NCBI GenBank assembly: GCA_903901425.1
Contig: CAIURC010000114.1
Location: 1-64,000 of the forward strand
DNA length: 64,000 nucleotides
Direction of reading: 5' to 3'
Source: an uncultured Spartobacteria bacterium
GTDB taxonomy: Bacteria > Verrucomicrobiota > Verrucomicrobiia > Chthoniobacterales > Chthoniobacteraceae
Both the position numbers and the translations under genes were made by a program. The notes below the pieces were generated by a model that saw only the letters and a program-made list of their open reading frames with translations, was not told the origin of the DNA and made no database searches. Positions 25,995 to 36,179 of this stretch are shown here, one piece after another; the stretch's first letter is position 1; every line of letters starts with the position of its first letter.

Positions 25995-27614
25995 ATGAAC
26001 CCCGGCTACCTGCTCGACGGTCTGGTGATCGTCTTTTACTTCGTGCTCATCGTTTCCATCGGCCTCTACAAAGGCCGGGGGGAACAGTCCATGAGCGCAT
26101 TCGCCATCGGCGACCGCAACATTCCATGGTGGGCGGTACTCGCTTCCATCCTTGCCGCCGAGATCAGTGCCGCCACCTTCCTCGGCGCCCCCAATGAAGG
26201 ATACGCCCTGCGGAATTTCACCTACGCCCAACTGGCCATCGGCACCATCCTCGCCCGGGTTGTCATCGCCTTTCTTTTCATCAAGCCCTACTACGATTAC
26301 CGCGTCGTCTCGATCTACGAGTTCCTCCTCTTGAGATTCGGGCACGCCACAAAAAACGCCGCCTCTGCCGTCTTTCTCGCCACCCGTGCCCTTGCCAGCG
26401 GCACCCGCCTCTACGTGGCCGCCGTGGTTCTGGTGTTGGGATACGAAAAAATCACCGGCACCAAGCTTCCCCCCCTTCAAGAGGTCAGCGTTTATGTGGC
26501 TGCACTGGCGTTCCTCACCGGCGTGACGGCCGTGTACACCGCTGCCGGGGGAATCAAGGCTGTCGTCTGGACCGACCTCATCCAGGCGAGCATCATGTTC
26601 GGTGCGCTCGGTTACGCCATCTGGACCCTGCTCCAAAGGGTGCCCGGCGGTTGGGACGGCGCATTGCAGATCTTGGACGCCCCCCGCGATCTTGCGTTCT
26701 TTGATTCCGGCTGGGTGGCAGGTCGCGGCATCTGGGAGAACGTCCGGGCCATTCTGGAGTCCGAGTACACGATTTTTGCGGCAGTGCTGGGGTCGACCTT
26801 CCTGACAATGGCCACGCATGGCACCGACCAGGACATGGTGCAGCGGATGCTCACTGCAAAAGACCACACCCGGAGCCGGCTTGCGCTGATCCTGTCAGGG
26901 CTTGCGGACCTCCCGCTTGTCCTGTGTTTTCTTTTGGTTGGAATTTTGTTGTGGGTGTTTTACAGGGAACCGGGCAAGGCGCACCCCTTCGCGCACTTCA
27001 TTCTCGACCATATGCCCGTCGGCGCCAGGGGCCTTCTGGTGGCCGGAATTTTCGCCACCGCCATGGGATCCCTCAGCACCGCTCTCAACGCCCTGGCCAC
27101 CAGTTTCACTGAGGACTGGTACGTGCCTTATTTCCGCCGGGGCGCCTCCCAGAACGAGGTGGTGCGGGCCGCTCGGTGGAGTACCGTAGCGTTCTCCATT
27201 CTTCTGGTCTTGATCGGGTCCGCGACCGCCTATGCGGTGGTGATTCTGAAGTCCAGGGTCATCCCGATTGTCCTGGGGATTTTCGGGTACACCTACGGCT
27301 CGCTTTTGGGGGTTTTTCTGGTGGGCATGCTGACCCGGCGCCGCGGGAGCAACCGGGGCAACCTCTGGGCCATGGCGGCGGGCTTCGGGGCCGTGGCGCT
27401 GTTGAGCGGCCTCCACAACGACCTCTGGATTCTTGCGCATCCTGCGGCTGCCTCTGGCGCGGCGCCTCAACCGCTTTGGAAACCCCTCTGGCTGCCGGTG
27501 GTGGAGTTTCCCTGGAGGATCCTTTTTGGGACCGTGGTGACGTTTGGGGTGGCGGTCTGTTTCCGGACCCCGGAGTCGCAGATCCGGTTGGTGGAGGAAC
27601 GGGCGGGGCGTTGA
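25995..27614 (+). CDS. Sodium:solute symporter family protein
   Basis: This is an integral membrane protein of 539 residues with about 13 hydrophobic helices. SSS-family features are the SMSAFAIGDRNIPWWAV segment after helix 1, SAATFLGAPNEGY in helix 2, and ATHGTDQDMVQRMLTA in the cytoplasmic loop, a strong signature for this family. It imports a small organic solute with Na+; the substrate is not evident. It lies between argA and dnaA and appears to be a single gene. Confidence 0.93.
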   Translation: MNPGYLLDGLVIVFYFVLIVSIGLYKGRGEQSMSAFAIGDRNIPWWAVLASILAAEISAATFLGAPNEGYALRNFTYAQLAIGTILARVVIAFLFIKPYYDYRVVSIYEFLLLRFGHATKNAASAVFLATRALASGTRLYVAAVVLVLGYEKITGTKLPPLQEVSVYVAALAFLTGVTAVYTAAGGIKAVVWTDLIQASIMFGALGYAIWTLLQRVPGGWDGALQILDAPRDLAFFDSGWVAGRGIWENVRAILESEYTIFAAVLGSTFLTMATHGTDQDMVQRMLTAKDHTRSRLALILSGLADLPLVLCFLLVGILLWVFYREPGKAHPFAHFILDHMPVGARGLLVAGIFATAMGSLSTALNALATSFTEDWYVPYFRRGASQNEVVRAARWSTVAFSILLVLIGSATAYAVVILKSRVIPIVLGIFGYTYGSLLGVFLVGMLTRRRGSNRGNLWAMAAGFGAVALLSGLHNDLWILAHPAAASGAAPQPLWKPLWLPVVEFPWRILFGTVVTFGVAVCFRTPESQIRLVEERAGR

Positions 27615-27748
27615 GCAGGTGGCTCTGCGTCAACTACAATCCGGTTTCGGGCCTGAAATAAATATGGGGACTTTTCCCCAAATTTTCTTGGCGCCCCCAA
27701 GGGTGCGGCCTACCCTCCGGAGCCATCCGGGCGAACCGAAAGGGGGCC

Positions 27749-27768
27749 TGTGAATAACTTGTGAATAG
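27749..27768 (+). promoter_or_regulatory. Tandem DnaA boxes
   Basis: TGTGAATAA (27749-27757) matches the DnaA box exactly. TGTGAATAG (27760-27768) has one mismatch. Both are in the same orientation and their starts are 11 bp apart, one helical turn, as in cooperative DnaA binding. Confidence 0.65.
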
Positions 27769-27954
27769 CCCAGAAAAACCTGCCATGTTTTCCAAGAAAA
27801 GTCCGTCCGTTGCCACCGAGTTGATGCGGAGCGGCGGGCTGTCCGGTCGGGGTGTTTCCCGAGGGATTTACCTCAGGAATAACGTTCTTGAATCCGGGTC
27901 GGCATCGGCCGCGGGGTTGATCTGAAGTGTACGGGGAATCCATCTGTTGACCGC

Positions 27955-27963
27955 TGTGGATAA
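27955..27963 (+). promoter_or_regulatory. DnaA box next to the dnaA start
   Basis: TGTGGATAA is a perfect DnaA box ending 16 bp before the ATG of dnaA. Binding here would overlap the ribosome-binding region of the DNA template and suits negative autoregulation of dnaA. Confidence 0.6.
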
Positions 27964-27979
27964 GGGACATTTCGACGCC

Positions 27980-29428
27980 ATGCCTGAAGAGGTTTTTTCT
28001 GGTTCCAACGCCCAAGAACCTCTCCCGGGTTCAGTTCGCGGGGGGGCTTCCCCCGACCCGCAAACCGGGTTGAGGGAGGGTTTGAGGGAGGCGTGGGCGG
28101 CGGTCTGTGCCGAACTGCAGAAAGAGGTGAGTGTGGACACGTTCAACCGGTGGTTCCGGGACACCGCACTGGTGGAACTGAGCCAGTCCGAGCTGACCCT
28201 CCGGGTGCCAAACAACATTTACCAACTCTGGATCGAGAGCAATTACCTCGGGCTCCTGCGGTCCGCCACGATGCTGGTGTTTGGAACCCCGTGTTCCGTG
28301 CGTTTCACGTTTGCTCCGGAGGATGCGGCAGCGGCGCCGCCGCCGCCGCCAGAGCCCAAGGTGGAGCCGGTGCCTGTGGAGCCCAAGGCGGAACCCAGCG
28401 CCTCTGGGCACGGGTTGAACGCGAGGAATACGTTCGAATTGTTCGTCGTCGGGACAAACAACCAGTACGCCCACGCTGCCTGCTCGGCCGTGGCAAATGC
28501 GCCCGGGAAGACGTACAACCCGCTTTTCATTTACGGCGGTGTGGGACTTGGCAAGACCCACCTGATGCAGGCGATTGGCCAGCACATCCTCAAGTCGCGG
28601 AAAAACAGCAAGGTCTGTTACGTCACGAGTGAGCGGTTCACCAACGAGTTCATTGATGCAATCCAGAACAGCACCCTGGTGAAGTTCCGCAAACGGTACC
28701 GGCAGGCGGATGTCCTGCTGATTGACGATATCCAGTTTCTGGCGGGGAAAGAGCGCTCGCAGGAGGAGTTTTTCCACACCTTCAATGCGTTGTTCGATGG
28801 TCACAAGCAGATCGTCCTGTCCAGTGACCGGCCGCCGTCGGAGATTGCGAACCTCGAGCACCGCCTGGTGTCGCGGTTCGAATGGGGCCTGACCGCGGAG
28901 TTGCAGCCGCCGGACATTGAGACCCGGCTGGCAATTCTCAGGAAGAAAGCCGAGGGCTTGGAGGTCCGGTTGGAGCCTTCGATTCTGGAGTTTCTTGCGG
29001 AACGGATCCGGACGAACGTTCGTCGCTTGGAAGGCGGCCTGATGCGGGTGGCTTCGTTTGCCTCGCTTTCCGGCTCTCAGCCGACCACGGAAAAGATTGA
29101 ACACCTCCTGAAGGATATTCTTCAGGAGGAGGCCCGGCGCGCCATCACGATCGACCAGATCCAGCGCCGGGTGGCGGAGCATTTTGATGTGCGTCTGGCA
29201 GACATGACCAGCAAGCGGCGGCCCCAGAACATTGCTTTTCCGCGTCAGATCGCGATGTACCTCTCGCGCGAGCTCACCCGGGCTTCTCTTGCGGAGATCG
29301 GGGACGCGTTTGGTGGACGGGACCACGGCACCGTTTTGCACGCGCACCGGTTGGTCAAAGGCAGGATGGGGAGCGAGGAAAAGGTGCGACAAGTGGTTGC
29401 CTACCTCGACAGCCAGCTCCAGCGCTGA
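27980..29428 (+). CDS. dnaA: Chromosomal replication initiator protein DnaA
   Basis: DnaA binds DnaA boxes and opens the origin. The 482-residue protein has all four domains: an N-terminal domain I (WAAVCAELQKEVSVDTFNRWF), a Pro/Glu-rich linker, and the AAA+ domain with Walker A GGVGLGKTH at about 185-193 and Walker B LLIDDIQFLAGKE. The C-terminal DNA-binding domain has the signature GGRDHGTVLHAHR. The ATG at 27980 was chosen; an in-frame TTG at 27947 would overlap a DnaA box. The SSS gene is upstream and dnaN is not adjacent, as dnaA is often separated from dnaN in this phylum. Confidence 0.97.
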   Translation: MPEEVFSGSNAQEPLPGSVRGGASPDPQTGLREGLREAWAAVCAELQKEVSVDTFNRWFRDTALVELSQSELTLRVPNNIYQLWIESNYLGLLRSATMLVFGTPCSVRFTFAPEDAAAAPPPPPEPKVEPVPVEPKAEPSASGHGLNARNTFELFVVGTNNQYAHAACSAVANAPGKTYNPLFIYGGVGLGKTHLMQAIGQHILKSRKNSKVCYVTSERFTNEFIDAIQNSTLVKFRKRYRQADVLLIDDIQFLAGKERSQEEFFHTFNALFDGHKQIVLSSDRPPSEIANLEHRLVSRFEWGLTAELQPPDIETRLAILRKKAEGLEVRLEPSILEFLAERIRTNVRRLEGGLMRVASFASLSGSQPTTEKIEHLLKDILQEEARRAITIDQIQRRVAEHFDVRLADMTSKRRPQNIAFPRQIAMYLSRELTRASLAEIGDAFGGRDHGTVLHAHRLVKGRMGSEEKVRQVVAYLDSQLQR

Positions 29429-35761: not shown

Positions 35762-36004
35762 GGCGGCAGAGGCTAGCCACCGGGTTATTTCCAAGATTTC
35801 TTGAAGCTTTGAATCATCCCTGCGCCGCGGAAATTCCGCCTGCAACGGGGCATCACTGGGTACTTTAAACTGCGTTCCCAATGGCGCTCCGGCAGCCTTT
35901 AATGAGGCCTAAAATGGCGTTGGCGTTGCCGGGATGAACAGACAGCTTTGCCCTGCGTTGTTCGACCAATCGGAGGTAATCCCGATCCGGTATTTTACAT
36001 AACA
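35762..36004. other. Gene-free stretch after pheT
   Basis: This is the first 240 bp of the 555-bp gap between pheT and the CoaB-like gene. I see no open frame with protein-like composition, no repeats and no recognisable RNA family. A promoter for the structured RNA that follows may lie near 35991-36002 (TATTTTACATAA), but no convincing -35 box is at the right distance. Confidence 0.4.
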
Positions 36005-36179
36005 AAGGAGGCCGGGGTGGGCGTGTTGATGTCATGCCTTTTTAGGAAGACTGAGGCCCGTTCCAGGTCATCCACCCGTTAACCTAATGGGGGAACGTGG
36101 TGACCCTTCGCGACGGCAATCGTGGGGCAAATTTTGGCGTCCCGGGAAGGCAGTAGCCTTTCCGGGACGCCTTTTTTTT
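36005..36179 (+). ncRNA. Candidate structured non-coding RNA or 5' leader ending in a strong terminator
   Basis: About 175 bases with no coding potential contain consecutive stem-loops and end in the best intrinsic terminator of the window. GGCGTG/CATGCC (36020-36038) is a 6-bp hairpin. CCCGTT/AATGGG (36075-36091) is a 6-bp hairpin with an AACCT loop. It is enclosed by CGTTCC/GGAACG (36059-36064 with 36092-36097). GGTCA (36066-36070) can also pair with TGACC (36101-36105); that crosses the previous stem, so it is either a pseudoknot or an alternative fold. The ends are approximate. It could be an independent small RNA or an attenuating leader of the CoaB-like gene, whose ATG is 138 bp after the terminator. 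It does not match tmRNA, SRP RNA or RNase P signatures. Confidence 0.4.
36136..36179 (+). terminator. Strong intrinsic terminator
   Basis: Arms 36136-36151 and 36156-36171 form a 16-bp stem with one G-T pair around an AGTA loop, followed by eight T (36172-36179). It works only in the plus direction, since the minus-strand side lacks a clean T run. It ends either the candidate RNA or read-through from pheT. Confidence 0.92.

Follow-up and report, generated by a model that had tools for sequence, protein, structure and literature searches.

The replication origin of a bacterial chromosome, oriC, is commonly located next to dnaA. For Methylacidiphilum infernorum, of the same phylum as the bacterium considered here, oriC has been placed by GC skew 250 nt upstream of dnaA (PMC2474590), and another report on Methylacidiphilum, also based on GC skew, gives an origin about 6.6 kb upstream of the gene (PMC4210602). 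DnaA boxes are also present in the promoter region of dnaA in Escherichia coli, where the promoter is autorepressed by DnaA-ATP (PMC3309966). The basal unwinding system (BUS) described for bacterial origins has two DnaA boxes separated by no more than 3 bp, next to a run of DnaA-trios (PMC8287927). A search of open-licence papers gave no description of an origin for the order Chthoniobacterales.

The window, which is the whole stretch of 64,000 nucleotides that was analysed, is part of contig C114 of the draft genome of an uncultured Spartobacteria bacterium (G000; 5.1 Mb in 224 contigs). Families are labelled f1-f13, f1 being the family of the window, and genomes G000-G129. Upstream of dnaA there is a gene-free gap of 365 bp (27615-27979), as originally predicted, extending from the end of a sodium/solute symporter-like gene (25995-27614, plus strand; TIGR00813 162 bits, below the cut-off of 184) to an ATG at 27980. 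The dnaA reading frame is open upstream of this ATG, with an in-frame GTG at 27956, and continues back to a TTG at 27947; the true gap may therefore be 24-33 bp shorter. The gene itself (27956-29428, plus strand; TIGR00362 541.8 bits, cut-off 343.9) has an uncertain start, GTG 27956 or ATG 27980, and is the sole PF00308 match in G000 (E <= 0.001). Its best named relatives among the best 80 loci of the contig search are from Spartobacteria and Chthoniobacterales, with 64 and 68% identity. Besides the symporter-like gene, its more distant neighbours are rplT, pheS and pheT. A 6S RNA is found at 35947-36132 on the plus strand of the window (Rfam RF00013, 53.6 bits).

With TGTGNATAA as the DnaA-box consensus, the gap contains three boxes, all in the same orientation, and the prediction of two perfect copies was correct. 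Box 1 (27749-27757, minus strand, TTATTCACA; plus strand TGTGAATAA) is exact. Box 2 (27760-27768, minus strand, CTATTCACA; plus strand TGTGAATAG) has one mismatch and is displaced by 11 bp from box 1, leaving 2 bp between them, in agreement with the predicted distance of one helical turn. Box 3 (27955-27963, minus strand, TTATCCACA; plus strand TGTGGATAA) is exact and overlaps the in-frame GTG at 27956. In 2000 first-order Markov sequences, 0.004 exact boxes were expected in the gap against the 2 observed; when one mismatch is allowed, the gap has 3 boxes and 0.13 were expected (P about 0.0005). An above-chance cluster of DnaA boxes, one of the features of an oriC, is present in the gap. Over the window as a whole, matches to TTATCCACA with one mismatch show no enrichment (6 found, 4.45 expected), and the unusual feature is the clustering of boxes in the gap, not their number in the window. 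The G000 genome contains six exact copies of TTATCCACA and 15 of the reversed pattern. The spacing of the tandem pair is within that of the BUS (PMC8287927), but inspection by eye showed no DnaA-trio run beside the pair.

The boxes are conserved within f1. Of 40 f1 genomes searched, 38 had a DnaA match; the best 30 loci by E-value, the window included, were retained, and L011 was dropped as it had only 118 bp upstream, leaving 29 loci. In the last 500 bp upstream of dnaA, 26 of these have an exact TGTGAATAA and none has an exact box facing the other way. A box pair with a period of 11 bp, each box with at most one mismatch, was found in 25 of the 29 loci (reversed motif 0/29). Close to the dnaA start, 24 loci have a further box with no more than one mismatch, exact in 14 of them (reversed motif 3/29). 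In 18 of these 24 loci the third box covers part of a GTG that is in frame, with the frame open in 17, and in the other six it is out of frame. It keeps the TGTGNATAA form while the N-bearing codon varies the residue after GTG (D, H or Y), so that DNA rather than peptide appears to be conserved at this position. The locus L029, with a partial dnaA, has no boxes upstream, and in G001, of the same genus as G000 but outside the 29 loci, only one-mismatch boxes were seen by eye upstream of dnaA. A homologue of the symporter-like gene is also found beyond the dnaA box pair in four f1 and two f8 loci. The boxes are real and conserved, and on the sequence data binding of DnaA to them is putative.

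The boxes had been predicted to flank an AT-rich segment, but the sequence between the pair and box 3 (27769-27954) has 58% GC, the whole gap 56%, and the sequence immediately upstream of the pair (27700-27748) 73%. The most AT-rich 40 bp, with 62.5% AT, start at 27650, before the first of the three boxes; only 0.35% of the 40-mers in the window reach this value. Some 60 bp separate this 40-mer from the pair downstream of it, and the gap has no AT-rich unwinding element of the oriC kind beside or between the boxes. The 40-mer overlaps a terminator-like hairpin with a T-rich tail following the symporter-like gene (27665-27680, plus strand), identified by consensus scan only, and hairpin and tail account for much of the AT-rich stretch. 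Three terminator-like sites were found in the region by the consensus scan, against 0.7 expected.

A promoter-like element, TTCTTG...TACCCT, is located at 27685-27716 on the plus strand and is the putative dnaA promoter, assigned by a pattern shared in the family. The pattern TTG-N19-22-TANNCT, with its end 31-34 bp upstream of the box pair, is present in 26 of the 29 f1 loci and in 0.1% of shuffled segments, a count obtained after the fact, as the pattern was widened once a stricter form had matched 11 of the 29 and the rest had been inspected. A standard sigma-70 scan gave a promoter-like site at 27611-27640 and none at 27685-27716. DnaA boxes are found in the putative promoter or the leader of dnaA, as in an autoregulated promoter. 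The promoter-like element is at a fixed distance from the conserved pair, the third box is over or near the gene start and all boxes have a single orientation, an arrangement that fits autoregulation. We consider it quite probable that the gap serves dnaA as promoter and leader, with autorepression by DnaA, and that the chromosome origin is elsewhere, most likely at a module beside rnc in this family. Transcription would start from the sigma-70-like promoter at 27685-27716, about 25 bp before the tandem pair, and DnaA on the pair and on the third box over the start codon would block RNA polymerase and repress its own gene. The presence of DnaA boxes in the promoter region is shared with E. coli, and a similar feedback is inferred here; the arrangement differs from the E. 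coli one in that the pair is downstream of the promoter-like element and one box covers a possible start codon (PMC3309966). Consensus-like boxes away from the supposed origin could also titrate DnaA without any control of transcription. This is very unlikely, as only two of the boxes are exact and their fixed spacing to the promoter-like element points to transcription.

GC skew, the check proposed for an origin at this locus, does not change sign at dnaA, either within the window or in G001. The skew is +0.151 to the left of the gap, +0.098 to the right and +0.112 in the next 16 kb. In G001 dnaA is located on the minus strand at 487 kb, in the middle of the 977 kb contig C31, where the skew is weak and is negative in 19 of 20 sampled 20-kb segments (mean -0.030 to the left, -0.024 to the right). 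On the 3.76 Mb contig C2 of G068, from another family, 35 segments gave an interpolated skew minimum at 95 kb and a maximum at 2720 kb, and dnaA at 3578 kb is within the negative arm, far from the minimum. There is no skew minimum at dnaA in the window with the next 16 kb, on the G001 contig or on the G068 contig. With one sign on both sides of dnaA in the window, and a single sign for 19 of the 20 G001 segments, an oriC at the gap is unlikely. The gap has the same position upstream of dnaA as the M. infernorum origin, but the latter is supported by GC skew (PMC2474590), and no skew switch is found at the gap. DnaA loading on the pair and on box 3, with opening of the DNA between or beside them, would agree with a box cluster that adjoins dnaA and with Methylacidiphilum origins published at or near the gene (PMC2474590, PMC4210602). 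Such an origin is nevertheless highly improbable given the constant skew, the lack of an AT-rich core between the boxes, the lack of exact boxes in the opposite orientation within 500 bp upstream of dnaA in all 29 loci and a better candidate elsewhere. The original prediction allowed for either oriC or only dnaA autoregulation, and autoregulation fits the data. Of the two observations that were named as refuting an origin here, the one on skew is borne out by the window and the two relatives.

The better candidate is a module that adjoins rnc in f1 and consists of DnaA boxes facing each other, together with a GAA repeat and an AT-rich core. In G015 (G015:C7:37401-37662; L276 17401-17662) it comprises five boxes in both orientations, three of them exact; the first two overlap the end of rnc and the rest are found between rnc and a NifS-like gene. 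The family search identified this rnc as ribonuclease III (225.2 bits, cut-off 166.25), and the NifS-like gene scored 529.6 bits for NifS, just under the cut-off of 530.75. The best 30 of the rnc matches gave 23 f1 loci and seven from other families, and L290-L311 and L313 are among the rnc flanks that show the module. Each of the 23 f1 loci carries at least two boxes, allowing one mismatch per box, within 280 bp at the end of rnc (1.3% of shuffles; reversed motif 0/23), and none of the seven other loci does. As in the window, DnaA-trios were not seen by eye at the expected place and strand of the module. The module pattern TTRTTCACANNNTNAAGAAGAAG is present with at most two mismatches in 46 of 117 genomes of the order, 13 of them exact, and in 12 of the 27 f1 genomes of that set; the reversed pattern was found in three. 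At this threshold it is absent from the other 71, including G000 and G001.

In G001 rnc and box clusters are on contig C39, and so no less than 487 kb separates them from dnaA, which is on C31. The single TTRTTCACANNNTNAAGAAGAAG match in G068 is exact (C2:74987-75009), about 20 kb from the skew minimum and about 260 kb or more from dnaA, a distance that is larger if other contigs intervene. In G073 both flanks of the module have negative skew. Downstream of rnc, G001 apparently has about three copies of the module in a row. There are rnc matches in 110 of the 117 genomes of the order and none in the G000 draft; the window and the 16 kb that follow it contained no match for alaS, rnc or the nifS-like gene, and a BLAST search of G000 with the module region of G003 gave nothing convincing (best E 0.132). 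Judged from the sequence comparison, the module beside rnc is most likely a better oriC candidate than the gap, and in the G000 draft that place was not found.

A nearby parS cluster is a further feature of bacterial origins. Among 29 chosen genomes, 10 contain the palindrome TGTTCCACGTGGAACA, which we take to be one base off the parS consensus, always on a contig other than that of dnaA (10/10), the contigs being unordered. Non-palindromic parS sites with one mismatch are additionally found in G006, G013 and G015, and the reversed parS pattern gave one match, in G070. Five of the ten parS genomes (G006, G013, G015, G047 and G073) have TTRTTCACANNNTNAAGAAGAAG and parS on one contig, 6 to 35 kb apart. 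The least possible distance between parS and dnaA is about 21 kb in G015, where a block of strongly negative skew spans from parS to the module. In G000 the parS-like site is on C88 (64147) and dnaA on C114, with a least possible distance of about 43 kb. A block of strongly negative skew (G000:C88:64147-79906) starts sharply at the parS-like site and continues as far as the end of the contig (79.9 kb). A skew switch at parS itself was discarded as the origin, since the change seen there has the wrong sign. The skew data for G000 cover the window, the next 16 kb and C88, out of 224 unordered contigs. The skew is negative where C88 ends, 15.8 kb beyond the parS-like site, and positive where C114 starts; if these two ends were joined, an origin may be about 28 kb or more upstream of dnaA, which would still not be the gap.

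A locus with gmk, dfp and a histone-H1-like gene was also considered as an origin and rejected, as f1 has no exact box there (G000 and 13 other f1 stretches) and G068 no skew switch. The gene order is kept in G000, as judged from gmk and yicC. A second conserved DnaA-box pair, with TGTGAATAACTCACT-type spacing, is located between dfp/gmk and the H1-like gene, named by eye, in G068 (C2:3628554-3628583; L181 8554-8583) and in several f6, f10 and f12 genomes. Such a pair is 4-16 kb from the module pattern in G067, G075 and G125, and further DnaA-box pairs were seen at L193-L196, L200, L204, L205 and L211, loci viewed as ORFs.

Among 18 named loci, 16 have one or more boxes with no more than one mismatch within 700 bp or less upstream of dnaA, the exceptions being L033 and L037. 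An 11-bp pair at a similar distance is found in four of the 18, three of which are titled only Verrucomicrobia (L032, L035 and L036) and one Opitutales (L058). The gap could on this basis be the relic of an origin located at dnaA in an ancestor, its boxes kept for autoregulation after the origin moved, and Methylacidiphilum origins at or near dnaA (PMC2474590, PMC4210602) are in line with such a history. It is compatible with autoregulation, but autoregulation alone suffices to explain the boxes, and we regard the relic as a possible, rather doubtful, addition. For the order as a whole, we give an even chance to a scheme in which the origin has split from dnaA and is now a dyad-like module, with dnaA retaining an old array of boxes for self-control. 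The module would have two facing DnaA boxes, GAA/AAG triplets inward of each and an AT-rich core, and would be next to rnc in f1 and beside other genes elsewhere. As the Methylacidiphilum origins are at or near dnaA, the conclusion of an origin away from the gene holds only for the genomes analysed here.

Two genomes of the same order, G127 and G128 (about 0.9 Mb, one contig, about 99% complete), have no match to the C-terminal domain of DnaA and are possibly symbionts. DnaA is described as lacking in another tiny verrucomicrobial symbiont (PMC8204192).

The conclusion for the window, that dnaA probably carries its own control region and not the origin, bears on the use of the gene as a landmark. 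The position of dnaA is often taken as the origin mark when growth is estimated from metagenome depth or when genome start points are set. It does not always mark the origin (PMC10197239), and as an origin marker it would mislead here. The module beside rnc provides a testable origin for a group that is known here mostly from drafts.
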